From NCBI GenBank assembly GCA_018105865.1, contig CM030840.1:7136006-7200005 (forward strand): a DNA stretch of 64,000 nucleotides. The letters run 5' to 3'. The position numbers and the translations under genes were made by a program. The notes below the pieces were generated by a model, which did not search any database, was not told where the DNA came from, and saw only the letters and a list, made by a program, of their open reading frames with translations. Positions 26,391 through 61,952 of the stretch are shown piece after piece (the stretch's first letter is position 1; each line of letters starts with the position of its first letter). This stretch comes from Metaphire vulgaris (lineage: Eukaryota; Annelida; Clitellata; Crassiclitellata; Megascolecidae).

Positions 26391-26464
26391 GAGCAGCATT
26401 ACAGACGCTTGCTTGATTCGCGAAAATCTTTGCATACGCTTGTTTGACTTTGCGAACCGACAGT

Positions 26465-27208
26465 ATGATGCAGAGAAAGCAAAACATGGAGGCCTGCTTC
26501 CGATGTGGGAAATGGTTTGGATCCAGGCAGATGCTGTGGGAGCACAGACGTGCGATGCATCCGGAGTCTCTGTCGATGGACCTGGGAGCCAGAACGCGGA
26601 AGACATCCGCGGCGACTCCTATCTCTGGTATGGCCATCCAACCACTTATGCAAAACCCACGATCTCGCATTCTGTCAGTTAATGTGGGACCGCGACCCGT
26701 GAATAACCAGCCGATGGCAGCAGTGAAGGAAGAACTACCAGCAGTGGCTAATCTACAGCTGGAGCCTTCCACCTCGAGAGGAATGACTCGAAGCGCATCG
26801 GTGGAACCAGCTACCCCAATCCGTCCTTCCTGCCTTTTGGATCCGAAAGTCATGCGCTGCACCGACATGATTGAAACATGCTGTCGGTGGAGCAGAAATT
26901 TCACTACCAAACAAGTCCGGGCCATGCTTACTGCCACCTTTCCGGATGTCGCGTTGGAGATGCGAGAGGCGGCGGCCTTCGGAGTGGCGCGCGGGCGACA
27001 ACCGGAAACCGCGGTCACTCTGGCGATGGAGGAGCAGAAAATCAAACCAGAGATGGAGATGTCGAATTCGAGAGATGGATTCGCTCCGGCGGAAGCTTTG
27101 TCAGATGCAGACTTCCTGGAACTTCTGGATAACTGGACGGACCCCCCGATGGATTTCGAGCCCATCACCCCTCCGGAGGCAGCAGGAACTCCAGATGTTG
27201 ACGCCTAA
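26465..27208 (+). CDS. C2H2 accessory protein, copy A (element 3)
   Basis: Open from ATG 26,465 to TAA, about 247 codons. I chose this start, or the ATG one codon on, because it places the finger as in the other two copies. N-terminal finger CFRCGKWF...HRRAMH (C-x2-C-x12-H-x4-H). A linker rich in Pro, Ser, Ala and Thr follows. The helical module (about residues 135-185) has CCRWSRNF, QVRAMLTATFPDVA and AAAFGVARG. The acidic tail has DADFLELLDNW and a final PITPPE. It shares all four parts with the genes at 43,625 and 60,592 but is clearly diverged. Neighbouring gag-pol is absent. The layout resembles a small transcriptional activator; the function is inferred and I do not recognise the family. 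The CRE/TATA array of the other copies is absent upstream, where LTR sequence lies instead. Confidence 0.75.
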   Translation: MMQRKQNMEACFRCGKWFGSRQMLWEHRRAMHPESLSMDLGARTRKTSAATPISGMAIQPLMQNPRSRILSVNVGPRPVNNQPMAAVKEELPAVANLQLEPSTSRGMTRSASVEPATPIRPSCLLDPKVMRCTDMIETCCRWSRNFTTKQVRAMLTATFPDVALEMREAAAFGVARGRQPETAVTLAMEEQKIKPEMEMSNSRDGFAPAEALSDADFLELLDNWTDPPMDFEPITPPEAAGTPDVDA

Positions 27209-27298
27209 AGACTAGATGTGGAGTATGGATGATCTAGGGCTATAGGTGACTTTTTTGTAGAAGTAGAAATAGAGGAACATTATAGCTTGTGAGTTAAA

Positions 27299-27336
<38 letters not shown>
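27299..27336. repeat. (TA)n microsatellite, insertion target
   Basis: About 19 TA units. The right remainder of the same run continues after 29,540. Confidence 0.9.
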
Positions 27337-27339
<3 letters not shown>

Positions 27340-29539
27340 CAGGTCAAAAAAATTTTTGTCACGGAACTGAGAAAATATTTGCATTTCCATCTGATTTGAA
27401 AGAAAATCACAAAAAGAACTACTTTGGAACATGTGGAAGTGCCCCATTTTTAATTAGGAAAGTTTGTACATTACTTGAAAATCACAAAAATTTGTATGCC
27501 ATCAATGAATGATCAATAGACGATCGGCATTTCACAGTTACTCACTCAGTAAGTGTTTATTACAAGAAGTTTTCACAAAAATCTTTTTTTACTCAAATAG
27601 GGGCATTAGATTTCGATAATTGACTCGGGCGTGAATAAAACCGTCTCTTGCATCAAAGCAATGAACTGCTGTTGAAGCATCTGTTACTAGTTTTATGCAA
27701 CGCTCCACTCCTTGTGTGTGATTCTTGTATTCCAAAGTAAGTGGGACAATTCCTAGCTTGGCAATATCTTCATCTAATACGTCTTCACTCAACTCTGGCA
27801 TATCGTGGTCACATGTGGTATTTTCAAAACGAACAAGGAATTTACTGTACTTTCGCAGTGCTGCAATTCATTACACAATGAGGTCAGAGAAACTTGAGGG
27901 TCCATAGGTGGATCCATCCAACCAACGTTTTAAACAGATTTCTCAAAGGCAATTAATTCATTTGTATGCAGCATACATATAAACCAATTGACTGAATGTT
28001 GCAGCATGCAATTGTGTAATTTGCTATGACGAATCCACAAAACAAATCAGCATATCTTGCAAACATGTGTCCTAATCAGTTCAATCTGATGGATTACTCC
28101 AGCTTTACAGCCTGTGTTATTGTATGTACCATCGCAGCCTACTTCTGAGACGCAATCGCCTGCATCTGAATTCTGCATCTCTGTTATTAATTTCAGAATA
28201 CTACTGGCAATGCCAGCACTTCTTCCTGATGAAGGTGTAACGTGAGTTAGACAACGAGAACATAGTGATCTTCAACAATAGTATCACCACACCACTTGCT
28301 ATTTCTGTTTACTTTGACTAAAGTGGCATTCCATCTCCCATCGACGTAAATACCTGTTATGGATTTGTGTGACTGTCTTACTTCATACCTCGCTGCCAAT
28401 GTCTCTTTAATTTATGTCTCTTGCAATGTACTTTGTTCTTATCAATTACAAAGCTTTGATCTTCTTTGCTTACAAGGCCAAAATCGATAAGCACTGTTCG
28501 TTTCTTTTGCTAGGTGCAGAAGAAGTAATCGCATTTGATTTTATCTTATTTTTTTCTGCAAAAGAGTTCAGCATCGCTATCAGAAAATACCTCACAGTTG
28601 CTTTCTTAATCACTCCCTTCACTATCATTGACTTTGTCTTCACTAAGATCTAATATTTATTATCACTATCCGATGTTTTCGTTACTCTTTTAGTTTTGTC
28701 TTCTTCATTGTGCTTTCGTTGCATCCTTTTTCATAACCGCTTTGTTGATTTTACGTCTAACCTTCCAATAAACATTTTCCTTGAGTTTCTTTAATCCAAT
28801 AAGAACAACTGTTCCTGTTGCGGGACTTTCAAATGTTTAGGACACTTGCAAGATGTGCTGATTTGTTTTGTGGATTCGTTATAGCAAATGACACAAGTGC
28901 ATGCTGCAATGTCAAACAAAGAGTTCAAGCTACTCAAGAAGGTGGTTTGACGTGTTGAACTTGACTTAGAGCGACATAGTTCTGAACCAGTGGAAATTAG
29001 TGTTTCGACACATTTCAAGACAGACGGAGAGTGAAGTGTTGGAATGAAAGCCTTGTTCCAGAGATTGATGATAGCCTCTGACACAGCTATTTTATTGTCT
29101 TTGTGTCATTCTTTTCTGTTTTGATGTGCAAGAAGTGCTGTCCAACTTGTGTATTTGTCGGCATCATATTGAAAGTAATTCCTATAACATTACCGAATAT
29201 AGCATGCCATGTAATGTTTCTTGTTCTCATGTCGAAACCACACTTTCCAACATTTATAGAATCAATTATCGAACAGTGTACCGTTAAAACAAAGAGGCAA
29301 TCAAATTACAGTCGAAAGTTAGGTAGATAAAAAAATCGTATGCCAAAATAGCAAGCAATAACAATTCTGTAATAAATGAGCAATGCTGATAAATACTACA
29401 ATCTTTAGGGCCAAAAATGGGGCGTTTGCAATAGCACAACTACCATTTTATTAGTTGTTTCTATCTTTAGACTTCATTTCACAAATAATTACCAAGTTCC
29501 GTAATGAAATTCCAAAATTTTTTATGTTTCGACCCGCCC
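27337..29539 (-). mobile_element. Unclassified DNA transposon inserted in a TA repeat
   Basis: GGGCAGGTCAAAAAAATTTT at the left and, read inward, GGGCGGGTCGAAAC at the right form imperfect inverted repeats. TA lies on both sides, but the (TA)n target makes the duplication uninformative. The interior holds a decayed minus-strand gene. I cannot assign a superfamily. Confidence 0.65.
27589..29084 (-). pseudogene. Decayed transposon protein (VGCDGT / KLVTDAST family)
   Basis: In minus-strand order the blocks are MSEAIINLWNKAFIP with FDIAACTC and CPKHLKVPQQEQLFLLD (29,084-28,791), VGCDGTYNNTGCKAGVI (about 28,150-28,090), NWFICMLHTNEL (about 27,980), and CIKLVTDASTAVHCF with ARDGFIHARVNYRNLMP (27,801-27,589). 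I know this block order from an uncharacterised family repeated in many invertebrate genomes. Many stops and frame changes separate the blocks. An inverted copy of the CTCVICYNESTK segment has been inserted at about 28,002-28,072. Confidence 0.6.
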
Positions 29540-29670
29540 TAATATATATATATATATATACATATATATCATTCGCCCAGAATACATAATACATAGAAAT
29601 AATATTAACAGCTATACTAAAAAAACAAGGGAAGGGTAAAGTTATGGGTTGGGTCTTGCGAAGAGAGGTA

Positions 29671-29988
29671 TGAGACGCCGGGGTCCGGCTACAGGCATAT
29701 ACACGTGGAGGGGCAGGGGAAGCGCACGGATAAGGGCCCCGCGGAACGCTATGATAGCAGCCGGATGCGCTAAGGTATATAAGGAAGAAAAAGCGGGAAT
29801 GTGGGGCTTTTTCGGTTCAGGAGCTAGGAGAGAGCAGGAAGAGAAGTATCGACAATGAGCGTGGCCGAGGACTGATTCTCCACCTAGTGGCAAGCCACTA
29901 GGCGGACCCAGGGACATAGGAGAGACCAGGGAGGGAGGAAGGGGACCAGGACGGAGGCAGACCCCTCACCTGAAGGTGAGTTGTCACA
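29671..29988 (+). repeat. Complete right LTR of element 3 (318 bp)
   Basis: Starts TGAGACGCC after a purine-rich GAAGAGAGG (candidate polypurine tract) and ends GTCACA. A TATA-like AAGGTATATAAGGAAG lies at about 29,773-29,788. Confidence 0.75.
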
Positions 29989-30779
29989 CCACTCCAACGC
30001 CATAAAAATCTGGTAAGGAAAAAAGGTCATCAATTTTTCTGTTTTTAAACTGTTGGGGTGAAAATGTTTTCCTTGCCCCGGGCGCCATTTACTCTAGCTA
30101 CAGCTCTGGGATTGAGAGACAGTTTCGATATAACCACGATTTCGAAATAAGCGAGTTCGATATATAAGGGTATCTTTTGTTTATTAGCAATTTTGCTGGG
30201 CGAGATGGGTGCCTAAAATTAGGTACAAGCGGTATTTCGATTTAACCCTCAAGCGACCAGCTGGGGTCCTTTGGGACCCCAGTCATGGTTTTCATTGCGC
30301 AACTTTTCGGCTATTGATGATATTCAATAACGGTTTAGTGAATTTGTAGCTTGGCTACTGCTTCAGGTTTGGGTAAAATAAAATCGATCTTATAATATGT
30401 GTACTTTTTAAAAATTGTCATTTCGTGTTGGGGTCCCTTGGGACCCCATTCGAATTTTCGCACAGAAGGTTGATTTAGCCAATGTGTTTGCTTTATTAGA
30501 CTTGAAATGTTCATAGAATTTCCAAATATCAATGTATTTTATTGTGTGACAGGGACCAGTGGATCATTGTGTAGTGATTGTCATCAAGTAGGACTATACA
30601 CTATACAGTATACCCAATCTATTAGCCTACCGTATTAGTCCAATATGTGCCTATTGTTATAAGCACATTGTAATGCTACTATACCTGTTGGAATATGAGA
30701 GTCCTGACCAAATTAGACATTTGTAGATTCTGTTGTATAGGTTATATGTCCGCTGTAATTCGTGTAGCTAGGTACAGTA

Positions 30780-35196: not shown

Positions 35197-38100
35197 CAGA
35201 GCCGGATTAACCATGTTGCATATGTTTCAATTGAAACGGGCCTACTCAGAAATATTTCTTATTTTTCTTATTATTTCCAAAAATGTTCTGTCTGTTTAAG
35301 ACAAGATTGTTTACTTTTAGTGTTTTGGGACTTAAACTTAATCCGCTAGGAGCGCTGATGCTTGTTTTCTGGCCTTCGTACAGTGTGAGGCCGTATTCAG
35401 ACTTACGGCACTGTGACGTCATATCCGTTACCGATTGTGGCATTTGTTGTGCTGTGAATTATAGTGTTACGGTATCTGAAATTAAACTTAAAGTTTAGTA
35501 TTATAATATAGTTTAACGAAATTAAATACTAAATAGTTAATTAATAAACAATTACAAATTGGAGAAAATGAAAAAATTTGAATCTGGCGCACAGAAGCGC
35601 AAAAAGATACGTCTTTTTGAAAAGGCAGCACAGTCACAACGTGGATCGATTGATCATTTCATTAAGAAATCGGACCCTTACAGTGATTCTATAGGAACAG
35701 AAATCCCCGGCAGCTTATCGCCAGATCCATCACAACCATCAGTAGCTGTAAACTTGTCCCTGGAAGAAAATGTGATTGATGAAGATATGATTGCTCCATC
35801 AGAAGGACTATCCCTACCGCTTGCAGTGGCTGAATCAAACTCTTTGGAAGATATGCCACCATTGATGGACATTGCTAGAGATGGGGACATAATACCAGAA
35901 ACTGATCCCGCATTATGGAATGTAAGTAGCGATATGGTGAACTATTGGCTACAAATTGGGCCCAAATCTTGTGCTAATCGAGATGGCATATATGCCAATT
36001 CGTTAAGGAAATATGTCAACAGTAACAGAAAACTGAACGATTCAGCATTTTACTCACAATCTCACAATGGAGAAAAACTGGAAAGGCATTGGCTTTTGTA
36101 TGCGCCATCATCTGGGTGCGTTTTTTGTTTTGTATGTAAACTGTTTTTGATAAACAGTAAGTCTGCACTTGCAACCACAGGATTTGACAGCTGGAGCACC
36201 ATGAACAGACTTGAACAACATGAAAAATCATCTGAGCACAGATGCGCTCTTACCACGTACTCCACTCGTTTATCCAAAGTTAAGACTTTGGACAAAACAA
36301 TTTCCGAGGAAGCTGATAAGGAAAGGCACTATTGGAGAGAAGTTCTAAAGAGAGTTGTCTCAACAGTTAAGTTTCTCACATCACGTGGATTATCACTCAG
36401 GGGATCTTCAGAAACCTTTGGTAGGTCAGATAATGGAAACTTCTTAGGTTGCTTGGAGTACCTAGCCGAATACGATTCATTTCTTGCTGGGCATATTGAC
36501 AAATATGGAAATGCTGGACGTGGCACTACATCATACCTATTATCGACCACTTATGAAGAATTTGTGGGTCTTATGGCGAAGCAAGTTATCAACGTTATTG
36601 TGCATGAAGTAAAACTGGCAAAGTACTTTTCTTTCAGTGTTGACTCTACACCTGACATATCACACACTGATCAATTGACTTTCACCGTTCGTTATGTGAG
36701 AAGTGATGGTCAACCTGTTGAACGTTTCTTGAAATTTGTGCAAATTTCGTCACACACTGGTCTTCATCTTTTTGATACCATTGTGGAAACATTTCGTGAT
36801 TTTGAGATCGATATAAAAGACTGTAGAGGTCAGACATACGACAATGCCAGCAATATGGCCGGGCAATACTCTGGCGTACAAGCGTGAATAATTGGAATCA
36901 ACCGAGCAGCCTCCTACATTCCTTGTATGGCACACTCACTGAACCTGTCTGGAGTTGCTGCAGTTGATACGTGCACGGAGGCAGTTAAATTTTTCGGTGT
37001 TGTTCAGAAAATTTATGTTTTCTTGTCTGATTCAACATACAGATGGAATCTTGTCAAAGATGCTGTCAGACAAAGCGTCGTCGGAACAGAAAAGTCAGCA
37101 CTTCTCCCAAAACGTTTGAGTGACACACGGTGGTCTGCTCATGCTGTTGCACTTCGGAGTATGTCTAACCACTATAAAACCTACCAATCTGTTTTGCAAG
37201 AAATCGGAAACAACAATTTGCAAAAGAAAGAGACAAGAGCAGAAGCAATGAACTTAGCTAAAACAATGGATAAGCTGGAAACTGTATTCTTAGCGTGTTT
37301 CTGGAATATCATTCTTGAACGCATAAATGATGTCAGCCAGCTGCTGCAGTCAGAAAAAACGGATCTTTGCATTGCGGCAGGACTCATGAAGTCGCTGTTG
37401 CAATTCTAGCATCTCAGAGGAACAGGTTTGAATTTTATCGAGATAAAGCTTCTGAATTGTGCCTTGGAAAGCAATTTGAAAGAAAACGTGCACGTCAACC
37501 AAAACGCCAAGCGGATGATAGCAATGAGCCAGCTGTTGTTTTAACAGGTGAAGAAATGTTCAAAGTCGAAACCTTTTATGTTATAATTGATTCCATTGTT
37601 ACCGATCTTAGCCGTAGAATTGCAGCATACAAAGCGATTGACGAGCGTTGTTATTTTTTTATGCCGATGATGAAAACAGCACTGCAGTAATGGAATCTTT
37701 AAAATTGTTTGCGGAATTTTACTCTGAAGATGTCACTGATAGCCTCTGTGACGAGTGGATTCAGTGGCGAATATTTCTAAAAGAACTGCGATCAATACAG
37801 ACAAAAAAAAAACACCAATGCAAATGTTGAAATTGATGAATGAATTTAATCTTAATACCGGATTTCCCAATGTGTATGTTGCTCTGCGCATTTATCTAAC
37901 TTTGCCGGTCTCCAACTGCACAGGTGAACGATCCTTCAGTCATCTCAAACGCATCAAAAATGCTGTTAGATCAACAATCGGTCAAGAAAGACTAAGTAGC
38001 TTAACATTGATGGACATTGAATCCGAAATCGTTCAAAGCCTTGACTTTCAGAATATTATCGATGCGTTTTCAGCAATTAAATCACGTAGGAGAGATTTTT

Positions 38101-38292: not shown

Positions 38293-40395
38293 CGAAGCAG
38301 GACGATTTGGTCCCGCCGTTTTGGTCCCGGTCGATTTGGTCCGGACGCTTCGGTCCCATCCGTTTCGGTCCCCGTCCGTTTCCGTCCCCTGAAAAAATGC
38401 TCAACAAAATATACTTGTGACCCAGGTATACAGGAAACGGAAATGAAGTTAAAGGGAATTTACAGACAGGTGTGGCGTGTCCTATACAGGTGTGGCGTGT
38501 CCTCTTGACGGTATGTTACCTTATTTATTTCAGTTTATTAATATTTCTGTTTGCGGGTAATATTAAATTATAGATTATTATATATAAATATATATTGGAA
38601 AATGCACGAAAAAACAGCTTCACCAAAAAACCTCAACAAAAAGTGTCAGAATTTTTGACCACCCTGTATGTATTTGCTTACAGAGGTCATTAATATGGAC
38701 GAAATACAGACGAAAAGAAGCCGAAAATTGTTGGAGGACGGAGGTTATCTTTTTACCTTCCACAAACAGAGCGCTGATCCCTCTAAGAAGTTTTGGAGGT
38801 GCCAAGGGCGAAGCGACGGGTGCAAAGCAAGACTTCATACGGATATTAACGATGTTGTTGCTTCACGAACTGGCCTTCATACACATGGAAGCAATGCAGC
38901 GAGGGTGGAGGTGGCACGAGTCAAAACCGCTATGAGGAAACGAGCAGTTGAGACAATGGAGCCGCCGTCTCTGATCTTGAACAATGTAATCCAGGGATTG
39001 GATCAAGCGACAATGGGACAAATGCCTAACAAAGACGCTACGCGTAAAATCATTGGAAGGGCCAGAATCAAAAATGCGAAAGCTCCACCTATGCCAACAA
39101 GTCTGGCTGATCTTATTATACCAGAAGAGTATCAAACCTACAAGACACCAGAGGGGAATAGCGAGTTATTTTTACTTGGAGATAAAGGTCCAGATGCTCC
39201 AAACCGGATTCTTGTTTTTGGACGTGCGAGTTTTGCGGCCTGGAGTGATCAGATGAAAGACGTTTATATGGATGGCACATTCAATCTGGCTCCACCTCTT
39301 TTTGAACAAGTATACGCAATTTTGAGCAAACGCGCCAACTTCGTATTTCCCATTATTTACGCTCTCCTCCCAAATAAACAGCAATGCACATATGAAGCCC
39401 TGTTCACCCTCATAAAAGAAATCTGGCCTCAGTTCCATCCGGATTCTGTCTCCGTAGATTTTGAAAAAGCTGTTATTAATGCGGTTGGTCAAGCGTTTCC
39501 AAATGCGGAAGTCCGAGGCTGTCTATATCATTTGATGAAGAATTTTAGAAGACACTTGGCCGATGCAAAAATGTTGCAGAGGTATAATACGGAACCAGCG
39601 TTTTCGCTTAACGCTAGGATGATTGTTTCGTTAGCGTTCGTTCCCATTACCGGTTTAGACGAGGCCTTTCAAGCTCTCTCGGAGACACTATCGGACGATT
39701 TAGGACCAATGCTGACATGGTTCGAATATTATCTGGGAAGACGCGTTGGAAGAAACCGTCGTCGTCGCGATCCACCCTTTTCGCCGGCATTATGGAATGT
39801 GTACGACCGTGTTATAGAAAAAGAAGACAGAACAAATAACCATGCTGAAGCTGCGCATCGCCGGCTGCAGACGGAATTTAACATACAGCACCCATCGATA
39901 TGGCGCTTCATCGATGGTTTGCGCCAGATACAAAAAGGTCGCGATTTGGTCTACGAACAGTATGTGCGAGGTGAACGTGCACCAAGAAAACGACAAAAGT
40001 ATCAGGATGCAGACGAGCGCATATTAAACATTGTGTCCACTTATGCTGACCGCCCGATAATTGAGTATCTTCGAGGTCTAGCTCACAATTTCCTGATGGA
40101 ATAACACTTACTAATAAAAACTCAGATTTTAAAACTCTCTGGACAATTAATAATTGCTATTAGCCACTGTTTATTTTAGTCTTACAAAAATTATATCATT
40201 TTACCATTACACTTGTCTGGACAATTGATAATTGCTGTTAGCCACTGTTTATTTTAGTCTTGCAAAAATTATATCATTCTACCATTACACATAAAATTGT
40301 TATATTTCGTCCTCCTTAGTCTTGGGACCGAAACGGAAGGGCAAAGGGACCTAAACGTCCAGGACCAAATCGGCGGGACCAAAACGTAACGGACG
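38293..40395 (+). mobile_element. MULE DNA transposon with 9-bp duplication
   Basis: GCCTCTGTC lies at both sides (38,284-38,292 and 40,396-40,404), a perfect 9-bp duplication as usual for Mutator-like elements. Both ends are about 100 bases of short modules (GATTTGGTCCCG, GTTTTGGTCCCG and variants, period about 15) in inverted orientation. Inside are a 16-base tandem pair at 38,469-38,504 and a 78-base tandem pair at 40,138-40,293. Confidence 0.9.
38695..40104 (+). CDS. MULE transposase with FLYWCH zinc finger, open
   Basis: The uninterrupted frame runs 469 codons from ATG 38,695 (478 from an in-frame ATG at 38,668). I prefer 38,695 because TTTGCTTACAG just before it looks like a splice acceptor. 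The N-terminal FLYWCH-type finger has GGYLFTFHK, FWRCQGRSDGCKARLHTD and HTHG (residues about 15-70). The MULE transposase domain follows: VYMDGTFNLAPPLF (first Asp), SVDFEKAVINAV (second Asp), and EVRGCLYHLMKNF with the C-x-x-H pattern. The C-terminal part carries TNNHAEAAHRRL (candidate third acidic residue). With recognisable ends and duplication, this could be an autonomous copy. It would cut and paste the element using its modular ends. Confidence 0.88.
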   Translation: MDEIQTKRSRKLLEDGGYLFTFHKQSADPSKKFWRCQGRSDGCKARLHTDINDVVASRTGLHTHGSNAARVEVARVKTAMRKRAVETMEPPSLILNNVIQGLDQATMGQMPNKDATRKIIGRARIKNAKAPPMPTSLADLIIPEEYQTYKTPEGNSELFLLGDKGPDAPNRILVFGRASFAAWSDQMKDVYMDGTFNLAPPLFEQVYAILSKRANFVFPIIYALLPNKQQCTYEALFTLIKEIWPQFHPDSVSVDFEKAVINAVGQAFPNAEVRGCLYHLMKNFRRHLADAKMLQRYNTEPAFSLNARMIVSLAFVPITGLDEAFQALSETLSDDLGPMLTWFEYYLGRRVGRNRRRRDPPFSPALWNVYDRVIEKEDRTNNHAEAAHRRLQTEFNIQHPSIWRFIDGLRQIQKGRDLVYEQYVRGERAPRKRQKYQDADERILNIVSTYADRPIIEYLRGLAHNFLME

Positions 40396-40602: not shown

Positions 40603-42717
40603 ATGGCGTCGCGAAATACCAGATCGTCATCGCAATTATCTATGCCGTTGTTAACATTGGACGGGGTCCGTGATGACCCTGAGATAAACTTTAATGACCA
40701 ACACCGACATAGCCCACATCTGCGAGGGAGGGGTCCGCGAGAATAACCACTTCGGCTCCGTTGATGGGGACCATCGGGGGAGGCATCGCCCGACCGAGAA
40801 GCACCACACGCCCGAAGGAGGGCAATGACAGGAGACCCGTTGAGACTGCCTACCCCTTCACCGCCGATGGGGGACGATCGGGGGGAGGTATCACCCAACC
40901 GAGAAGCCCCACACGACCGTCGAAGGAGAGAAGTGATCCAGGGCCCGACAAATCTCTACGCCCCGTCAACACAGATGGGTCAGCTAAGGCTGACTACCCC
41001 TTTGCCACCACTGGGGGGGAGGTTGGGTTAAGCACTACCCGATAGAGATGCCATCCATGGCCGAATGACAGGGGAGAATCCGGACACACACAATAATATA
41101 AGAGACCAGTACCGGAATGAATATCAACCCCAGGGTCCGATGACACCAAATACATTCAGACCCATTCCCGACCGATTCACAGATCCGGGGGAGGGGGACA
41201 GCGTGTACAACAACCGATGAATAACAGGGACACTGTGGATACCACCACATTCTACCCCAGACCGACCACTATCAATCCGGTTAAGCGACATAACCGTCCC
41301 AATCAAAGGAGTGAAATTAATATTGATCATGATTATGATCGCAGGGCAGGGACCAGTCATGAACACTTGAGGGCGCCAGGCACCATGACCGCAGCCCATT
41401 GCCCGTACGGCAACGAACGACCGACCGATTATAACACATTCTACCGCCATTCGCCAGACGTTGGACCGATCAGAACTAATAATTCCGATCGCCAGAGGGC
41501 GAGTGCCAGGGATGACCGCGTGGGGACGGCCAGGTATATGACCACTGGGCCATGTCCGATGGAGGGGGATCTGGGCCATTACCATGACCAATCTGAACCC
41601 GCTTACAGACAGGTAAAAGGGGAAGACCGGCCCAAACAATTTATGAAACCGGGAAAGTACAATGGGTCGACCCCAATAGACGCGTTTTTGAAACAATTTG
41701 AAACATGCTGTAAACATAATAAATGGTCAGCAGAAGAGAAATGTGACTTTCTGCAGTGTGCTTTAGAAGGTCCCGCCACTGAAGCCCTTTGGAACTTATC
41801 TGCCATGGGGGATTTATCTTATGAAAACCTCGCAGACCGCTTAAAACAACGATTTGGCCACCAAGGGCAAGCAGAAACCTATCGTACGCAGCTTTACAGT
41901 TGTAGACAGAAACCCTCTCAGACGCTTAATGACCTTCTATTTGAAATCCGCAAACTTATGTCACTGGCTTATCCGTCCCAAGACAAAGACCCCAACCCCG
42001 TTATTGAAGATATCGGACGGGATATGTTCGTAGAAGCCATAGCGAACCCGGATTTGGCAATAAAGGTGAGGGACCGAGACCCCAAAAATCTAAATGACGC
42101 CTTCCGTATAGCCCTCCGGTTAGAAAGTTTTATGAAAACAGATCGTGATAATTTAAACTCATGCAAGGAGGAACCGATACAGGGGGCAAAAGGGGGCAAT
42201 GATACAGAATTAATCCTGAGGAAACTAGACGAAGCACTGAGTAGGCAAACCTTAAAACAAGAACAATTTAATCGATCAATAACGGAGCAAATGCAGCAAC
42301 TGGCCATGATACGAGAAAAGACATCGAATATTCGATCACTGCCCACACCACCCCCAGTAGAAAGACAGGTCCGATTTGAGGGGGATAATGGCCGTAATAC
42401 AACCCAATCCCCCCACACCGAGGACTGAGGTAACAAGTTTTAACAGTAATAACAATAATTGGAGGAACAGACCTATGGGGGAAAATTATGACCGGCCGAC
42501 ACCGAATTATAATCCACCCAGACAACTTAAGGAACCCCCCCCCCGCTGCTTCAATTGCGGGTCATTGGACCACCTTAGACGCAATTGTGGGGATCCCAGG
42601 CGCTATAACAATTCAAGACCCCAGATAAACCAGAGCCTGAACAGAGAGGGGGCACGGAGGGGCCAACAACACTATATGCCCGAACGCAGATCAATGGTCG
42701 ATCATTGCTATCAATGA
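40603..42717 (+). pseudogene. gypsy-1 gag polyprotein, frameshifted
   Basis: The N terminus (ATG 40,603) has PLLTLDGVRDDPEI, matching the start of gypsy-2 gag, then a stop at about 40,743. Disordered Arg/Asp/Pro-rich DNA follows in other frames. The capsid-like core is open at 41,217-42,428 with FMKPGKYNGSTPIDAFLKQF, KCDFLQCALEG and ENLADRLKQRFG. A frame change leads to the zinc knuckle CFNCGSLDHLRRNC (C-x2-C-x4-H-x4-C, about 42,547-42,588). The knuckle would bind the RNA genome in the particle. Confidence 0.85.
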
Positions 42718-43073
42718 CTGACTCTGGAGCCACCGAAAATCTTTTACCCAGTAGATTTGCGGGGGGAGTGACTCTCAGACCGTCTTCTTGCCAATTCTAC
42801 GCTGCCAATGGAAGTCTAATTTCTACAAAGGGAGAAGCCACTGTGTCCGTTCGATTAAGCCCCACCTGCACGAGAAGGGTAAAATTCACCGTGTCTGATC
42901 AGATAAGTGAAATACTACTTGGAGTGAATTTCTTAAAAAATGAAAACTGCAGAATAGACTTTATAGGCCTAAACGACATACTACAAATTGACAATGAAAA
43001 AGTGCCACTAATATCCATACTACGCCCAATGAAATCCTGTTCGGGAAAGAAAATCTCATGGCAACAGATCTAA
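42705..43073 (+). pseudogene. gypsy-1 retropepsin
   Basis: An aspartic protease domain with the catalytic DSGATENLL near its start and the flap-to-C-terminal ISEILLGVNFL. It is in a different frame from the preceding knuckle. The frame ends at the deletion that joins it to the pol C terminus. Confidence 0.8.
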
Positions 43074-43455: not shown

Positions 43456-43554
43456 TGACGTCATTGGAAATAACAGAAGGAACGCTTATGGGATTGGTGA
43501 TCAGAGACGGAGAGGGGCGGAGACACATTCGTCTGCGACTCCATAAGATATATT
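43456..43554 (+). promoter_or_regulatory. Candidate internal promoter of accessory gene, copy B
   Basis: In order: TGACGTCA (43,456-43,463), ATTGG (43,463 and 43,493), GGGGCGG (43,514-43,520) and GATATATT (43,547-43,554). The initiator ATG of the gene is about 75 bases further on. The same four boxes in the same order precede the copy at 60,592. Confidence 0.55.
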
Positions 43555-43624: not shown

Positions 43625-44449
43625 ATGAGCAGAGCGGAAAATGAAGTATGTTTTAAATGCGGATGTTGGTGCCGCGACTGGGACGCCCTTGTGCGCCATC
43701 GCAAGCAGGCGCACGGGATGGAGGAGGGGAGGAGGAGGAACGCTCCTCCGTCGAACACTGTAGCGAGGGAAAAAGTAAGACCTGTGGTCCCTCTGATGCA
43801 GGTCCAGACGTTGAGTCCTCGCACAAGTCCGGCAGTCTCCACGCGCGGCATCCGGCCTACGTCGATCGGGGGCGCGATGGCAGGCCCCAATCCAGGTCTC
43901 AATCAACCGGCGTCCACTGAAGTAAAACGGGCTCAGGCACCGGCCGCACTTCCTACACCAGAAGGACCGACCGTGGAAAGGCCTCGAGGAACTCCATCGT
44001 CTGCCAGTCCACCATCCGCCCAGCAAGAATCACGGCCACCTACACACCCCCTCGCCGTACAGCAGGGCCGCCTTGAACTTCTGGTTGAGGTGGCGGGCCG
44101 TTGGAACCGCAAATTCTGTGTGGCACAAGTACGAGAAATGCTTGAAGCCACCTTCCCGGATGTAGAGAGGATGTTCAGAGACGCAGTGGCCTTCGGTTTG
44201 GCCCGCGTCAGACCACTAGTGGCCCCGGCGGCGGCCCTTGGATCCACTGTGACTACCTTTCCCGACATCGGGGCTGCGACTTCGCCTCCACTGGTCAATT
44301 TTCAGCCTCTGCAGGACTCGGGAACAGGACAGAATCTCGAGGAGGATGAACTGATGCACCTGCTTGAAGAATACTCGGAACTCACGTCTGCGCTGGGAAC
44401 CAGCCTTGTCCCACTGGAGGCACCAGCCATCATCAAGGATGAACAGTAA
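43625..44449 (+). CDS. C2H2 accessory protein, copy B (gypsy-1)
   Basis: Open for 274 codons, MSRAENEV start. Finger CFKCGCWC...HRKQAH at residues 9-30, of C-x2-C-x12-H-x4-H type. The linker (30-150) is rich in Pro, Ser, Thr and Arg. The helical module (about 150-198) is RLELLVEVAGRWNRKF, QVREMLEATFPDVE, RDAVAFGLAR. The acidic tail has LEEDELMHLLEEYSEL (about 238-255). It lies 250 bases after the pol remnant, in the env position, and has its own promoter-like array and an AATAAA at 44,761. Gag-pol of this element is broken and deleted, yet this frame is intact. Likely a nuclear DNA-binding regulator; this is inference from layout, and no family is recognised. Confidence 0.8.
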   Translation: MSRAENEVCFKCGCWCRDWDALVRHRKQAHGMEEGRRRNAPPSNTVAREKVRPVVPLMQVQTLSPRTSPAVSTRGIRPTSIGGAMAGPNPGLNQPASTEVKRAQAPAALPTPEGPTVERPRGTPSSASPPSAQQESRPPTHPLAVQQGRLELLVEVAGRWNRKFCVAQVREMLEATFPDVERMFRDAVAFGLARVRPLVAPAAALGSTVTTFPDIGAATSPPLVNFQPLQDSGTGQNLEEDELMHLLEEYSELTSALGTSLVPLEAPAIIKDEQ

Positions 44450-52463: not shown

Positions 52464-52470
52464 TTGAACG

Positions 52471-52557
<87 letters not shown>

Positions 52558-52924
52558 GGCAGGACGACGGAAAGGCTGACGCAAGTGAAAGGGAGAGCCA
52601 GGAGGAGAGGAGGACGCCGGAGAGCGGGATATATAAAGAAGGAGCGCGAGAGAAGAAGGAAGAAGAGAGGAGGATTGCGAAGCGGAGACTGGATGTGGAG
52701 AGCAAGGGAGCGAAAGGAAAGGGGACGTCGGAGCAGCGGAAAGGATAAGGTGAGAGTGTTGTATGTTGATTGTATGTGTGTTGCGATCAGATTATATTTA
52801 CGTGTTTGAAACTCATGCGTCTTGTACACGTCTTCTAATAGATTCAGGGTGGGAACCGCGGACATATACGACAGAACAGGGGTAAGGGGGGAAACGAGGG
52901 TAATCCCCCCGGAAGGTCGTTGAA
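52464..52924 (+). repeat. gypsy-2 5' LTR (461 bp)
   Basis: Starts TTGAACGATATAG and ends GGTCGTTGAA. A (GA)n tract of about 38 units occupies 52,476-52,553. A TATA-like GGATATATAAAG lies at about 52,628-52,639. Apart from GA length and a few small differences it equals the 3' LTR. Confidence 0.9.
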
Positions 52925-53058: not shown

Positions 53059-55895
53059 ATGTCGGAGATAAATGCGATGTCGAGGCAGACAAGAGCTCAG
53101 ACTAGAGCACAGTCGAGAGCGTGTATGCCTTTATTTACTTTGGATGGGGTCCGTGATGATCCAGAGATTAGCATTGCACCGCTATACCGGTCACCGACAG
53201 CCGACGTAACACCGCAAGGGCCCGAACTAATCAGATCGACCACACCGCTGACGCCCGGGGGAGATAATCGGGGAGACACACCGCCCGTTAGAAGAGACTG
53301 TGATGACCGTGAGGGGCGAAACAATACCGATGACGCGGGGGGTCCGAATCTAGATAATGGCCTTCTGCGAAGCCCGTCTCCGCGGCGGATATACAGACCG
53401 ACACCTCGATACCCCAGGGACCAGCAGGGGCGAGGCGGGGTCCGCGATAATGACCGACCGATGGAGAAGGGGAACGACCCGGTGATAAGTACCGATTATG
53501 AAGCACAGTCGCTTGGCTTCAGCCCGATCATACGAGGCAGAGGGGATGAAAACAGGCATAGACCCGCAAACGACCAGGTTTATGACCGTAGAATTGGGCC
53601 CGGAAACAGGGACGACCGATGGCCGGGTACCGACACTTATTACCCAAACAGGGACCGTTTCACGACCGCAGAGCGAATACCGTTAGAAAGCGACCATGAA
53701 CAATGTTGGGTCAACACAAACCGCCCAATACCGGAGACACAAATGAGGGGTCCGATTCACCGAAACAGAAAAGAGGTAGGGTAGAGACCTATTGCCACGA
53801 CACCCTGGGCCAGAGAGTACCGAACAGGGGCCCAAGGGAAGTAAACGACCGAATGGAGGGCGATGATCGTGATGGTCGCTGGGGTCCGATTAATGCAGAA
53901 GGGGGACCAGAAATACCAGGGCCAGAACCAGACCGACACCGCACAGGCAGGATTCTGCCGTGGAACTCGAATAATGGCCAGGATTACGGGGGAATAGATT
54001 TAAACCGGCCAGCACCCGAGACACAGAGGATGGGCCCGGTTAATAGAGGCAATCGAAGGACGGGGACCGGAAATAATGGCTCCGAAAACCAGGACCAGGG
54101 ACTACCGAGTAGAGGCCCGACCGTGATAAACGATCCACTGGGTTATGAAGACCGCAGATATCACTACCCCCCTAGGGAACCGAGGGGACCAGATAGGCGA
54201 TGGCCAGAATCCGTTTATAACCGGATAGGTCCAGACATAACGGGACCTTTACCGATAAACCCGGGCCAGGCATATGATGAATTAGATCAGAACCGACCGC
54301 AACCCGACAAAATAAATGATAGGTCCGAAAAGCCTCATAGACAATTCATGAAACCGGCGAAATACAACGGTACAGGCCCGGTAGAATCATATATCGCGCA
54401 ATATGAAATTTGTGCACGGCACAATAAATGGACAGCAAGGGAAAAATGCGATTTTCTTCAGTGGGCTCTGGATGGTGTTGCCACTGAAATTTTGTGGAAT
54501 TTGCAAGGGACAGGGGACCTCACCTATGAAAATTTGGTGGACCGGCTAAGACAACGATTTGGCTATCAGGGCCAGTCGGAAACGTTCAGAGCACAGCTTT
54601 TCCGGTACAAACAGAAGCCAGCCCAGTCGCTTAACGATTTAGTATTTGAAATCCGGAAGTTAACCTCTTTGTCCTACCTCAACCAAAAGGACAATGAAAC
54701 AGTCGAAGGAATAGCCCGAAACATGTTCATTCAGGCTATCGCGGATCCCCAACTAAGATTGAAGGTCCGAGAGCGCGAGCCCGTGTCACTGAACGATGCT
54801 TTCAAACTAGCACTCCGATTGGATAGTTTCTCAAAATTAAGTGGGGCCGATTTCACACCACACCCGAGTCTACCGCAATTCAATGGAACCGATTTCTCAC
54901 CACACCCTAGTCAAACCGCAGAAAGGGTTAGAGGGGGGCCGGAGACCGAATTCATATGCCGTAGATTTGAAGAGGCTATGAGAGCACAGACTATAGCGCA
55001 AGAGGCCTTCCAGAAGTCTGTTAACGATCAGATTCAGAGAATGAATGATAAAACCGATCAGAGAACCAGCCATTCCCCAGGGCTAACCACAGAGAAGCAG
55101 GTTCGATTTGAAACAAATAATCGACCCCCACCGTCTCCAACACCGACACAGAAGCAATATTTTCCGCAAAAGCAGGAAGGGTCCGGATTTAATAATAATT
55201 GGCGCTATAGATCCGATCAAAATACCCGCGAAACACCAAGTAGACCCTACAACCAACCCTATGACCAGCAGAACAGATCAAAAGAAGCACCCCGCTGCTA
55301 CAACTGCCAGATGCCCGGTCATATCCGAAGGGACTGCCCCGAAAAATGGCGCAACAGAAGTCAACGGCCGCAAGTTAATCAGAGTATAAATAAAAAAGGA
55401 GACAGAGAGGGTCCGAAATCACTTTATGTGAGACCAAAGATAAATGGACGGCAGTTATGGTCCCTCATTGATACCGGCGCCACAGAAAATTTAATTCATA
55501 GTCGTTTTACTCGAAATGCTACAATCAGGCCCACTACAGTCGATTTGTATGCGGCCAACGGAAGCAAAATAAATGTGAAGGGAGAAACGGTTTTGACCGT
55601 AAGATTTAGCCCCAGATGTGTATCTAAAGTCAGATTCATTGTATCCGATGAAATAAGCGAGATACTGCTAGGAATGGAATTTCTCAAAAGCGGGAAATGT
55701 AAGCTAGATTTTCAGACTGACACGCTGCAAATTGGACGGGAAATAATAAATTTAACCACATTTGTTGGTCAGCGTTGGGCCAGACGCGTTCAAATAGGAA
55801 GAGAAATCACTCTACCGCCCGAATCGACCAGCGAAGTACCGGCTAAAATGTTAATAGGAAACGCCGAGGAGAGGGAGGGGAGAATGGTTGCTTGA
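53059..55895 (+). pseudogene. gypsy-2 gag-protease, one frame change
   Basis: The ATG at 53,059 gives MSEINAMSRQTRAQ and PLFTLDGVRDDPEI. A long Arg/Asp/Pro-rich, probably disordered region follows. The first frame stops at 53,784 and continues in another frame, open to 55,895, so one indel lies at about 53,700-53,784. Next are the capsid-like core (FMKPAKYNGTGPVESYIAQY, KCDFLQWALDG, 54,340-54,830), zinc knuckle CYNCQMPGHIRRDC (55,296-55,336), and protease IDTGATENLI (55,467) with ISEILLGMEFL. Pol overlaps its last few codons in a different frame, which suggests frameshift or restart translation of pol. Confidence 0.88.
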
Positions 55896-58800
55896 ACACA
55901 AAGAACTTACCCCAGGCGTGCATTTAGCCCGAGCGGTGTATGAAGGCCGGGGAAGGGAGGCAGTGATACAAGTGACTAACACAAACCCGACGGCCGCTAT
56001 TATTAGAGCCAATGAAGTATTGGGCGAACTGACACCCGTGTCAGTCCAGAGCCAAAGCCATCAACCCGACCCCGTAAACAGCGAAGTATGGAAAGCCGCT
56101 GTGGCCAAAATACTCAACGAAATTCCACCCGAAGTAACCAAGGAGGAAAAAGCACTATTAAAAAATGTTCTGTTTAAATACCGAAATGCATTTTCCTTAG
56201 ACGATACTGATTTAGGGTGCACCGATTTAATAGAGCATTCTATCACAACAATAGATGACTCACCCATACGCCAAAGTCTTCGGCGCCAGCCGATGGCTTA
56301 TCAAGACGCCATCGATGAGCACACGGACCTATTGTTACAGCAGGGCGTAATAACCCCCTCCCAGAGCGAGTGGGCGGCAAATGTTGTTTTAGTGAGAAAA
56401 AAAGACAATAAACTTCGATTCTGCATTGATTATCGCGCGCTGAATGCGAAAACACGTTTCGATGCGTATCCGGTCCCGTTGACAAGAGTTTGTCTTGATT
56501 CGCTAGGGGGCAGCACCTATTTCAGCGTTTGCGATTTACGCTCTGGTTTCCATCAAATTCCGATTAAGGGCAGACGCCCAACCGTACAGCCTTCAGAACT
56601 CGTAAAGGCCTCTTCGAATACAAACGAACAGCCATGGGGCTACGGGTGCCAGTATCACATGTTGCCGACTTATGGACCTAGTTCTAAAAAATTTGAACCA
56701 CATTTCTTGTTTGCTTACTTAGATGACGTCATAATATTTGCTGCCGACCCCGTAACGCATATTCAGAGGCTCGGTGAAGTATTAGAACGCATGGAACGAG
56801 CCGGCCTTAAATTTAGACTGGACAAATGCAAGATCATGAAAAGACAATTAATATTCCTCGGGCACTCCATATCAGCAGAGGGAATTTCCCCTGATCCTGA
56901 AAAAGTGCTTAAAATAGAACAATGGCCGATACCCAGAAAAGTGAAACAAGTAAGGAGTTTTTTAGGACTCTGCACCTATTACAAGTTATTAGTACCTAAA
57001 TTCGCAAAACTGGCGTCACCTCTGACGGAACTTACAAAGAAAGGAAAGTTATTTGTATGGAGCGCCGAATGTCAATCCTCATTCGAAGCGTTAAAAGTGG
57101 CCCCTCACATCCGAACCGATTGTAGCCATGCCGAATGACCATGACCCTACGTACTGGATGTGGATGCTAGCCTTTTTGTATAGGCGGCGTATTAGCTCAA
57201 ATATCAGGGGTAAAGAAAAAGTGGTGGCATATTTTAGCCGGAAGCTTACTCCTGCCCAGCAAAATTACTCGACTACGAAAAGGAATTTCTGGCGTTGATT
57301 GAATGCGTTAAATACTTCAAACATCATTTATTAGGCAGAAAATTTTGGCTCGTTCCGATCATCAGGCCCTCACATCGATATTTAAGGCCCTGAATTGTAT
57401 GGACAGTACGCCCGCTGGATTGATTATTTGGCCCAGTTTCAGTTGACCCTGACCCACAGAAGTGGCAGTTTGCACCTAAACGCCGATTCCATGAGCCGGC
57501 GGGGGGCAGCAGAAACTGAAGATAAGGCTACAGAGAATGGGGAAGGAGCAAGATACAACCTGTCCGAAGGGGAAATGGGGAAAACCCAGCCCCTAAAGAC
57601 CCGCGAATTTGACCCAGAGCAGGAGCCGGCGAACAAACAGAGACAAGAACAGACGGAAGACGACGAACGAACGGACACAGACAGAGACAAAGACGGTGAC
57701 GAATTTATCACACGTGAAGTGCACGCTGTGAACCCACGGCCGATCAGCGTAAACAGGTCTTTCGAAACGCCCGCCGCCCGAATAATAGCAATGCAGAGGG
57801 CCGATCCAGAATTAAGCCGCGTCATAGATTGGGTGGAAAATGGAGCCGCAGAACTTGCTGACATATTGTCTGATGGACCCGAGATAAAGACCTATTTTTT
57901 CAATTGCATCAGATGGAAATCACGGATAACGTGCTATACAGGGTCAATCCAAGAAAAATCAAACAGCTAGTTATACCGAAGGCCCTGCAAAACGAATTCT
58001 TGACCCTGGCCCATGCAAATGCAGCGTCCGGTGCGCATTTAGGCATTCGCCGCACCCGATTAACCGTTAGAGCCCGAGGGTATTTTCACGGCTGGTCCAA
58101 ATATACCGAACTCTTCGTAAAGAACTGTGAAAGATGTCGGCGTTATATTAGGCGACCATTGCCCCACCATGGACCACTCCAGACGCACCGATGCGGAGAA
58201 CCGTTTGAGATTTTATCAATAGACCTGACAGGCGCTCACCCCTGCACCGAGGATGGGAACCGCTATGTACTTACGATGTTATGTTGCTTTTCAAAATGGA
58301 TAGAGGCCATTCCCGTAAAGTCGATGACAGCCAGTTGTGTGGCTAGGAATTTAGTCAACACGGTAATAGTGCGTTACGGCGTCCCTAGGGTAGTTTTGAC
58401 AGATAGAGGCCCGGCCTTCGAAAGCGCCCTCTTCAGCGAATTATGTAAGATTCTTGGGGTGCATAAAACACGTACCACAAGCTACTGGCCTCGAGCCAGC
58501 CCCGTAGAATGTTGGCATAAAACGATGAATTCAATGGTCGCTAAATGTGTGGGCAAAATCACAAGAGATGGGACGAAACTATTCCCCCTCGTGACGTCAG
58601 CATATCGGGCCTCAATCCATGAAACAACGGGGTTCAGTCCCAACCGGATCGTCCTAGGAAGAGAAACGCGCCTCCCCTGGACCTAGTGTATGGCCTGCCA
58701 CCATCCGAAAAAAGTAGCGACACCTGTCGAGTATGTCACTAGAATGAGAGATGAAATGGAAGAAGCTTTTAAAATAGTCAGAGAACGGTTGCAGCAAAGC

Positions 58801-59288: not shown

Positions 59289-60400
59289 GAAGTAGAAAAT
59301 TAAAATGTAGATAATGACGTTTAATGACGTGTATATAAATGGTATAATGGTCTAAAAGTGGAAAATGCATGTGAAGTAGGCACACAAAAAAAGGGTTAAG
59401 AGACTATGAAATTGTACATACGTATATGAATTACGAGCGCAGGATATTCCTGTAACAGTTATATAGCGCATGGAACAACTCCCGTATATTAATGTATAGC
59501 AGAAGAAAGAGAATGACTAGAAGTGAGTAAATAAGTAAGATGTATAGAGATGTATATAGCAAGAACAAGTGAGTAAGTACGGAAATAGATAGCTAGAAAA
59601 GACGGACGAATGTTTTAAAAAAATGTGGCCAAGCAGGAAGGTCAAAAGAATGCATAGTTGTGTATATATGAAAAGGCATAGAAAACAAATAACGGAAAAT
59701 TCTAGAAACAAAAGGACAGAAGCCTGGGAATGTAAATAATTGGATTAAACAAGGGTAGAATGATGCAGAGGATGAGCAAGGGAGATGAAGTACAGAAGTT
59801 ATATAGCGCCAAGGAAAGTCGCGTATTAAGTACAGAAACTAGCTGAGAACAAGTGAGTAAGTACACAGTAGGCATATAGTGGAACAGAGGTAGCGAACTG
59901 TACATAGGGCTATATAAGAAAAGGGAAGTCAGTAACTTTTAGATGTTTATGTAGCGCATCGAGGAATCCACATGACTGGTAGAAGAGCGGATAAAATTGT
60001 AGAGACGCTCAGCCATTGGCAAAGAGAAGGGAAATTAACCACAAAATAAGAGATATTTAAAATTGACATAGAAAAGAAGGACTCAGTTGACCCTTATAGG
60101 AGAAAAACGGAGGGGTAGGAGACGAACCCTGAGGGAAGAGGACGTTCGAAGACAGACAGCTAGGAACCCTGGGATCTTTGGACGAGGGTTTAATGGATTA
60201 AGGATGAACGCCCTAGGGGCAAGACCAGATTGAAGGAAGAGATAAGGCGGCGGAGAAGCTGCGCCGGAGAAGAAGGAGAAGACGGGTAGGACCACCCGGG
60301 GAAGTTTCTGGAAAAAGGGTAGAGGGGGGGAAGGTAATTTTGTGTCTGCGAGTATGTTGCAGGTAACCACGACGAAGATGGACATGATGGACGTTGGAAA
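59289..60400 (+). other. Purine-rich spacer between pol and the accessory gene
   Basis: No plus-strand coding. The strand is strongly purine-biased. Degenerate direct repeats begin TTATATAGCGC at about 59,459 and 59,799, with a weaker TTATGTAGCGC at 59,947. GAACAAGTGAGTAAGTAC recurs at about 59,563 and 59,849. Minus-strand Ser/Leu/Pro frames are mirror artefacts of the purine bias. Confidence 0.6.
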
Positions 60401-60405
60401 TGAAG

Positions 60406-60498
60406 TGACGTCACGATGCAAGAATGAATGCGCGAAGGCGATTGGCTCGCGGGAAGCAAACGGGGAAAGGGGGCGGCGAACCATCCTGCTGTATATAG
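60406..60498 (+). promoter_or_regulatory. Candidate internal promoter of accessory gene, copy C
   Basis: TGACGTCA (60,406-60,413), ATTGG (60,441-60,445), GGGGGCGG (60,469-60,476) and TATATAG (60,492-60,498). The initiator ATG is about 95 bases further on. Order and rough spacing match the array before copy B. Confidence 0.6.
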
Positions 60499-60591: not shown

Positions 60592-61482
60592 ATGCATAGG
60601 GGGAGCGCCGAAGTTTGCTACAGGTGTGGAGCGTGGTTCCAGGACTGGGCCACCCTCGCTCGGCACCGGAAATCCGCGCACGGGCTGGGCGGGGATGGCG
60701 GAGGATCAGAGGGACGGAGTGGGCCGCAGCCGCAGCCGAGAAAGCCGACCATCCAGCCACTGATGGGAGCAGGAGCGACCGCCACTCCCCGGATGCAGAC
60801 GGCGAACGCGAGCGCGCTCTACAGGATCCGTCCCACCACGGTGGTAGGAACCTCTGCCGAGCCGGTGAGGAGGATGACGACCACGGCGATGTCGGTGAGC
60901 ACTCGGGGTACGAGGCCGGCGGTGGACCTGGCTCAAGCGGGGACACCGGCCCCCAGCAGACCTGTGCCTGGACCGGTCGCCACCATGGCCGCCTGCCCCC
61001 CAGCCATCTTGCACGACCTCTCCGCCCGCCGGGGGCGCCTGGAAACTATGGTGGAGGTGGCCTGCCGTTGGAGCAGGAAATTCGCTATCCGGCAGGTGGA
61101 GGAAATGCTGGCGGCGACCTTTCCAGAAATAGAGGCGGACTTCCGCAAGGCGGTGGCCTTCGGGGTCGCCTGGGGACCCAGCCGACGTCAACGACACTTC
61201 CGTCCTCGACGACCTCCACCTCCTCCCCAGAGGACCGCTGGACCTCCGGCACCTGTCAACCCCACCAGCGGGGGAGACGCCGACCCGCGCCACTATCCAG
61301 AAGCAGGACGCGGAATCTTCCTGGATACCCCACTGGCGAGCGGCGACGCCATGATTGGCGAAGACGAACTTTTGCATCTGCTGGGCGACTGGGGTGAGAC
61401 CGTCGCCGGAATCTCGGCAGCGTACGAGGACATCACCCCTCCCGGAGAAGCGGATGTGGGGGAAAACGGCGGAGCTGATTGA
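60592..61482 (+). CDS. C2H2 accessory protein, copy C (gypsy-2)
   Basis: Open for 296 codons from ATG 60,592. Finger CYRCGAWF...HRKSAH (residues 9-30), again C-x2-C-x12-H-x4-H. The long Pro/Arg/Thr/Ala linker spans about 30-145. The helical module (about 145-200) is RLETMVEVACRWSRKF, QVEEMLAATFPEIE, RKAVAFGVAW. The tail has GEDELLHLLGDW and ITPPGEAD, with ITPP shared with copy A. It is GC-rich, with two other frames open in part. It sits between the pol spacer and the 3' LTR, about 470 bases before the LTR. It stays open although gag-pol upstream has at least six frame changes. Likely role: sequence-specific regulator, perhaps of the element's own transcription; inferred only from layout. Confidence 0.82.
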   Translation: MHRGSAEVCYRCGAWFQDWATLARHRKSAHGLGGDGGGSEGRSGPQPQPRKPTIQPLMGAGATATPRMQTANASALYRIRPTTVVGTSAEPVRRMTTTAMSVSTRGTRPAVDLAQAGTPAPSRPVPGPVATMAACPPAILHDLSARRGRLETMVEVACRWSRKFAIRQVEEMLAATFPEIEADFRKAVAFGVAWGPSRRQRHFRPRRPPPPPQRTAGPPAPVNPTSGGDADPRHYPEAGRGIFLDTPLASGDAMIGEDELLHLLGDWGETVAGISAAYEDITPPGEADVGENGGAD

Positions 61483-61952
61483 ACTATTGAACTATCGACG
61501 AATAAAGGACTTCCGGATACAGGACCCCAAGGAGCAAGGCAAAAGTAGTGGACGAGAAATGTGCGACTGGTATGCATGGATGGAATGAGAGTGGGTGTTT
61601 TATATTTGTTTTAACTTGTGCTATAAATTTTGAACTAGTTAAAAAGAACGATTATGTTAGAGGAAATTAGAACACTTAATTGCAGGAATTTGATACGAAC
61701 TCAGAAACTTTTATGTTGACTAAAAAAATTATTTCAACTCTATTTTAACTCCGGAACCGTGGAGGTAACTCAGAACTCGTATACTAAAATCGACCACCTC
61801 GGTTTAAACTCAGAAGTCGACATAGGATAAGGAGAAACTTTAATTAATCATGATTAGGTATTAACATTTATCATAATAATTCATGTGAGCGGTGGGAGTT
61901 GAGAGAGAAAGAAAGGAGAGAGAGAGTGGGTTTGGTTTGAACAAGAGGAGAG

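Follow-up and report, generated by a model that had tools for sequence, protein, structure and literature searches.

According to the available excerpts of the papers cited here, the foamy virus regulator Tas/Bel-1 is encoded in the 3' part of the LTR element and possesses a promoter region of its own, located within env (PMC7390438). Basal activity of this internal promoter starts Tas, which then activates both promoters (PMC7390438); Tas is proposed to act on both of them as a DNA-binding activator (PMC7390438, PMC8670036), and one research paper describes such a promoter as peculiar to foamy viruses within the retroviruses (PMC7390438). Among retrotransposons, the accessory gene gene23 of the maize element Grande, located between pol and the 3' LTR, is antisense to gag-pol, has its own promoter and encodes a nuclear protein (PMC7264820). 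The Gypsy-like LTR element Cer1 of C. elegans encodes CERV, an extra nuclear protein with a C4-type candidate zinc finger, which is made from a spliced mRNA and is involved in genomic-RNA export (PMC10309623). Finally, LTR retrotransposons of bdelloid rotifers carry an extra family-specific ORF after pol, with spliced messages, whose types comprise a GDSL esterase, a DEDDy exonuclease and env or transmembrane proteins; the term "zinc finger" is absent from the text of that paper, and the common assumption is that an ORF3 after pol is env-like (PMC5408684).

The window analysed here is a stretch of 64,000 nucleotides (G000:C9:7136006-7200005), part of a 728-Mb assembly of the same genome, in which a preliminary description had reported three copies of an accessory gene carried by Ty3/gypsy elements. 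The genes are called ORF3 hereafter, and their carriers A, B and C. Element A is a Ty3/gypsy element by its LTR pair, its gag, protease and reverse transcriptase (RT), and its integrase positioned downstream of RT; among solved structures its RT is nearest to Ty3 (1.7e-39). ORF3 lies between integrase and the 3' LTR, as a separate ORF that is not fused to integrase:

52464..52924, + strand: 5' LTR of A, boundaries placed by eye
53703..55895, + strand: gag with a CCHC knuckle and aspartic protease of A (ORF, Pfam)
55888..57138, + strand: reverse transcriptase part of A (ORF, Pfam, solved-structure match)
57904..58686, + strand: integrase of A (ORF, Pfam)
60592..61482, + strand: ORF3 of A, an open frame of 296 aa
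61953..62386, + strand: 3' LTR of A, boundaries placed by eye, directly preceded by a polypurine tract (61943-61952)

The LTRs are 98.6% identical over 425 aligned positions, ATAA stands on the outer side of both, and a primer-binding motif is present. Though the LTR element looks complete, its pol is broken up over several frames. The integrase match is separated from the start of ORF3 by 1.9 kb, of which roughly the last kilobase is A+T-rich (GC 0.40).

Element B is a pol-deleted relative of A that has the primer-binding motif in common with it. No RT or integrase core could be matched in B with Pfam or tblastn, and a relic of the integrase C-terminus was seen by eye before its ORF3. C is a remnant with no match to gag or pol nearby, in which ORF3 is flanked by LTR-like repeats and nested in a hAT-like element:

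41217..43022, + strand: gag and protease of B, which has neither an RT nor an integrase core
43625..44449, + strand: ORF3 of B, an open frame of 274 aa
26303..26385, + strand: LTR-like repeat left of C, with its partner at 29671-29740
26465..27208, + strand: ORF3 of C, 247 aa counted from the ATG at 26465 (the frame begins at a TTG, 26444, in the ORF listing)

Because gag and pol are unmatched and the LTR-like repeats lie within the hAT-like element, C alone is uninformative on a place after pol.

The hAT-like element around C (26129-30116) shows, by eye, terminal inverted repeats CAGAGC.GTAGCTAG and is flanked on either side by the 8-bp repeat GGATTGAG. Some 155 kb upstream, the contig contains second versions of C, B and another copy, D (window 26465-64000), designated C', B' and D' (G000:C9:7007435-7053937), a recurrence which suggests a segmental duplication. 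About 2.2 kb of C are absent from C' (L040), where two 87-nt repeats at 95% identity surround ORF3. The window also contains a MULE transposase with a FLYWCH finger (38668-40104), a DUF4371 protein (35559-37409) and non-LTR retrotransposon-like ORFs (21602-24102, by eye).

A tblastn comparison within the window shows the three ORF3 proteins to be homologous (A-B 4.9e-33, A-C 2.0e-17, B-C 9.5e-16), B and C being 37% and 29% identical to A in the alignment. In each of them a linker joins a finger to a helical module, and the tail contains an acidic stretch with LL at its end. The corresponding segments in A are:

60616..60681, + strand: C2H2-type finger, residues 9-30, C-x2-C-x12-H-x4-H, from ligand conservation
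61018..61173, + strand: helical module, residues 143-194, three predicted helices
61360..61479, + strand: acidic tail with EDELLHLL, from sequence reading and charge

The ligands C9, C12, H25 and H30 (A numbering) are invariant in a 4-row alignment, and their C-x2-C-x12-H-x4-H spacing is within the range of classical C2H2 fingers. The finger of ORF3 A did not reach the Pfam cut-off for C2H2 (zf-C2H2_4, 14.8 bits for a cut-off of 27); 7 of 9 ORF3 members matched zf-C2H2_4, with a best E of 0.0049. Exceptions to the spacing are L052, where it is absent, and L003, in which one ligand is changed. The module motifs R-W-x-R-x-F, Q-V-x-x-M-L-x-A-T-F-P and A-F-G-x-A are invariant across A, B and C. 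Over the last 50 residues the net charge is -12 in A and -10 in B, the two proteins computed, and such an acidic, LL-rich tail presumably resembles activation domains. About 20 residues of the A linker are in a frame that differs from L002, L003 and P0001, yet without a stop. From the open frames, the tblastn matches and the invariant positions, the three genes of the window are real and homologous and share one finger, one module and one acidic tail (charge from A and B), in agreement with the preliminary description.

Its view that they form an unrecognised accessory family was supported by the database searches. No Pfam family exceeded its cut-off for ORF3, PDB gave weak C2H2 matches only, and the protein collection (in part with the best 8000 candidates scored) gave only three relatives, P0001, P0002 and P0003, all nameless and of one source type; its coverage of eukaryotic retroelements may be thin. 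No named relative and no known env, gag or host family was recovered in the Pfam, PDB and protein searches.

The assembly was searched with the ORF3 of A, B and C, resulting in 56, 46 and 39 matches, respectively, in overlapping sets. A search with the integrase of A gave 148 rows (147 of 1008 candidates scored), which were crossed with 57 pooled ORF3 rows from the A and B searches over 6 kb downstream. Among the candidates scored, an ORF3 match was found downstream in 24 of the 31 rows whose integrase is at least 52% identical to that of A, corresponding to 22 of 29 elements (two were listed twice), and in none of the 117 rows below 52%. The distance from integrase to ORF3 was 1.2-2.6 kb in all rows but one. 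Three of the seven unmatched elements were read, and all possess an ORF3 relative after integrase, of a truncated type in L050 and L051 and of 286 aa in L052 (module E 7.9e-11 among 629 ORFs). ORF3 was thus found after integrase in 25 of the 29 elements (22 by search, 3 by reading, four misses being unread), i.e. at the same place in most copies, between pol and the 3' LTR, where the preliminary description proposed to look for it; the check was made in the element's own genome. In addition, L047 contains an open C-type ORF3 of 301 aa directly after integrase, with a polypurine tract and an LTR start behind it (by eye). ORF3 is a conserved, long-retained accessory gene of one Ty3/gypsy lineage, situated between integrase and the 3' LTR.

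No integrase was listed upstream of 32 of the 57 ORF3 rows, many of which are fragments, duplicates or of the truncated type. Eight solitary loci were read (L034, L035, L037, L038, L039, L040, L044 and L045); gag-pol of their own family is absent directly upstream, and L039 contains other gag and integrase pieces. Seven of them, all except L035, were included in a comparison of non-coding sequence. Sequence beyond ORF3 is common with fuller copies at L034, L037, L039 and L045, and the likeness spans about 90-190 nt only at L038 and L040. L044 has no non-coding sequence beyond ORF3 in common with other element copies. No clear case of a free-standing host gene was seen at these loci, and L044 might at most be one. 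With element-type non-coding sequence at 6 of the 8 solitary loci, a family of free-standing host genes, the outcome named beforehand as contrary to a retroelement origin, was not what we observed. At two solitary copies (26395-26464; L038, about 5524, reverse complement), the similarity to fuller copies begins shortly after a TATA-like box, much as transcript 5' ends may; no poly(A) end was seen at either copy.

The truncated ORF3 type, a 145-residue open frame, accounts for 18 of the 56 rows of the ORF3 A search. At the truncated loci read (L030, L050 and L051) the finger is missing and the module is cut, and in integrase rows beside this type, open frames reach 1727 residues. L030, L046, L050 and L051 belong to a multi-copy subfamily in which the pol frames are long and ORF3 lacks the finger and keeps part of the module. 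The spread of this subfamily with a long open pol implies that ORF3 is supplied in trans or dispensable, and argues against ORF3 being essential.

Judged by sequence identity to A, ORF3 divergence broadly tracks integrase divergence (integrase/ORF3: B2 65/40%, L047 60/26%, L052 55/22%), the truncated type being slightly out of order (L030 67/34%). With the NG86 method, dS was above 1.4 or undefined for between-family pairs, dN and dS were 0.071 and 0.248 for C2 vs C3, and dN exceeded dS in the locus duplicates (C vs Cdup 0.015/0.003; B vs Bdup 0.024/0.014). The low dN/dS of C2-C3 and the excess of dN in the duplicates suggest constraint while the element is mobile and drift after insertion: ORF3 seems constrained during element movement, a part of the reading based on the single pair C2-C3, and seems not to be retained as a host gene afterwards.

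The DNA preceding ORF3 contains a spaced CRE-ATTGG-TATA array which, as a sequence pattern, is new:

60357..60362, + strand: TTGCAG of A, conserved and acceptor-like, from cross-family comparison
60406..60497, + strand: promoter-like array of A, with the CRE TGACGTCA at 60406-60413, ATTGG at 60441-60445 and TATATA at 60492-60497
43456..43552, + strand: promoter-like array of B, with TGACGTCA at 43456-43463, ATTGG at 43493-43497 and ATATA at 43548-43552

Relative to the ORF3 ATG, the order is TTGCAG (-200 to -229), TGACGTCA, exact or with one base changed (-169 to -186), ATTGG or ATTAG (-132 to -158) and an ATATA-type box (-77 to -119). Of 6 diverged families, five (A, D, B, B2 and B3) possess the CRE-ATTGG-ATATA array, which appeared in none of the 2000 shuffles made of each of these five. 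The exception, C3, has no CRE, and one of 2000 C3 shuffles contains the array. TTGCAG is found at its position in A, D, B2, B3 and L047, and is absent in B and C3; L047 also has ATTGG and TATATA upstream, with no CRE by pattern. In the window TGACGTCA occurs 8 times for about 1 expected, so the word is not rare here and proves little by itself.

With the start site assumed at TATA + 30, the interval from it to ORF3 is free of ATGs in all 6 families, for 6.9 expected, and 25 occur upstream of it, for 18.4 expected. The observed/expected CpG ratio of the arrays is 1.40 in A, 1.16 in B, 1.64 in L047 and 1.47 in L036, and 0.80-1.07 in gag-pol pieces of these four elements; the A LTR reaches 1.17 and the L060 pol 1.27, with piece boundaries that we chose ourselves. 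A strict TATA precedes 7 of 13 ORF3-type starts vs 104 of 676 ATGs (P 0.0015) and is missing at the other 6, and TATA together with a CRE half-site precedes 5 of 13 vs 17 of 676 (P 1.1e-5), P values which overstate independence in view of the kinship of the families and of their partial use in choosing the motif. U3 and the array of A have no 8-mer in common; foamy-virus promoters likewise share little sequence, according to the available text (PMC7390438). The pattern as a whole supports a candidate internal promoter from which ORF3 would be transcribed.

We also read nine sister loci of our choice with an integrase less than 52% identical to that of A. Six exhibit a distant ORF3 relative or look-alike, L056 is ambiguous, and no ORF3-like ORF was found within 2.3 kb at L055 and L058. 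In clade Y (L053, L054 and L061), the post-pol ORF has a finger of identical spacing, and a splice-acceptor-like polypyrimidine tract and AG directly precede its ATG. Clade Z loci (L057, L059 and L060) each have two tandem post-pol ORFs homologous to each other, with a CxxC-type motif in three of four ORF kinds (by eye) and a module linked to that of clade X by hhalign (E 2.1e-4, probability 46%). Upstream, a CRE in L060b and a half-site in L057a are each followed after 21-25 nt by a TATA box at -55/-56; L060a has a TATA at -46, and L057b neither CRE nor TATA.

From its architecture and the promoter-like array, we infer that ORF3 is quite possibly a nuclear regulator of its element with its own internal promoter, in a design like that of foamy-virus Tas. 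A pol II promoter made of CRE, inverted CCAAT and TATA would start transcription about 50-90 nt before the ORF3 ATG, and host CREB/NF-Y-type factors would turn ORF3 on first. The protein would be nuclear; its finger and three-helix module would bind chromatin, the DNA of the element or a partner from the host, and its acidic LL-containing tail would recruit co-activators. It would then boost LTR transcription, and perhaps its own promoter too, as in the two-promoter design of foamy viruses. This reading draws on the place of ORF3 in 25/29 elements, the array in 5/6 families, the CRE or half-site ahead of TATA in L060b and L057a, the TATA and half-site counts over 13 starts, the absence of ATGs after the assumed start, the CpG ratios, the C2-C3 dN/dS, the finger, the acidic tail, the absence of a membrane segment and the precedent of Tas. 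Against it stand C3 and L047 without CRE, L057b with neither motif, the TATA missing at 6/13 starts, TTGCAG and the donor-like sites, the frequency of TGACGTCA in the window, the lack of a common U3-array 8-mer, the multiplied copies with a truncated ORF3 and the sub-cut-off finger. Its extension to an early/late two-promoter circuit of env-less Ty3/gypsy elements, in which CREB/NF-Y-like factors would act on CRE-CCAAT-TATA and the resulting zinc-finger activator on the LTR, with this logic in at least two clades, X and Z, whose accessory proteins share an ancient helical module, and with splicing in clade Y, seems to us somewhat doubtful.

The position after pol would suit an envelope-like gene, but the best 19-residue Kyte-Doolittle means are 0.94, 1.41 and 0.67 for A, B and C, and by hydropathy none of the three has a segment hydrophobic enough to span a membrane; in the absence of hydrophobic segments an env-like ORF3 is extremely improbable. 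ORF3 may also be expressed by splicing, in view of the conserved TTGCAG and of donor-like AAGGTGAG sites, one at 52747 in an LTR of A and one at 29973 in an LTR of C. A nuclear post-transcriptional factor made from a spliced LTR transcript, acting like CERV or HIV Rev through an RNA-binding finger in the export of unspliced genomic RNA, in splicing control or in packaging, would account for these sites, for the TTGCAG kept in A, D, B2, B3 and L047 and for the tract and AG of clade Y, and CERV itself is nuclear, with a spliced mRNA and a candidate zinc finger (PMC10309623, available excerpts). However, between 2 and 8 ATGs would precede the assumed start in a message from TTGCAG (A, D, B2 and B3), B and C3 have no TTGCAG, the L047 stretch has no donor of AAGGTGAG form, and the acidic LL tail is left without a role; we regard such a factor as unlikely.

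Finger, module and tail could instead serve integration targeting or anti-silencing, by anchoring the element on chromatin or on a silencing factor, and Gypsy elements offer a known case of added domains in the chromodomains found at the pol end (PMC12440569, available excerpts); since ORF3 is a separate ORF, unfused to integrase, and its own promoter would stay unexplained, we consider this improbable as well. That ORF3 is dispensable to its carrier, as a passenger or supplied in trans with a minor present function, would agree with the truncated frames in 18/56 rows, the fingerless cut modules of L030, L050 and L051 beside long open frames, and the free drift of the locus duplicates. ORF3 is nevertheless retained over families with saturated dS, with low dN/dS in C2-C3, and the array is retained next to it, which makes dispensability quite improbable.

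Compared with the systems described above, a regulatory ORF3 would be of a known kind and a new variant, Grande gene23 and Cer1 CERV being the nearest retrotransposon precedents in the sources available. Like gene23, to which it is likened by description, ORF3 is an accessory gene between pol and the 3' LTR; since ORF3 of A and B is in sense with gag, unlike the antisense plant gene, the gene23 type was ruled out for it. Like CERV, again by description, it would be an extra nuclear protein of a Gypsy-like LTR element with a candidate zinc finger, which in CERV is of another type and belongs to a spliced, RNA-exporting system. With the bdelloid elements the ORF3 lineage has in common an extra ORF after pol, of different protein types. 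The closest working analogue would be foamy Tas with its internal promoter, a regulator encoded towards the 3' end of an LTR element, next to a promoter-like region. The likeness is one of design: the ORF3 carrier is a Ty3/gypsy element without env, and its array is a candidate promoter seen as a pattern, whereas the foamy promoter sits within env. Regulatory accessory genes are a hallmark of complex retroviruses; if the conserved ORF3 and its conserved promoter-like array are what they appear to be, such a layer of control can arise without env.
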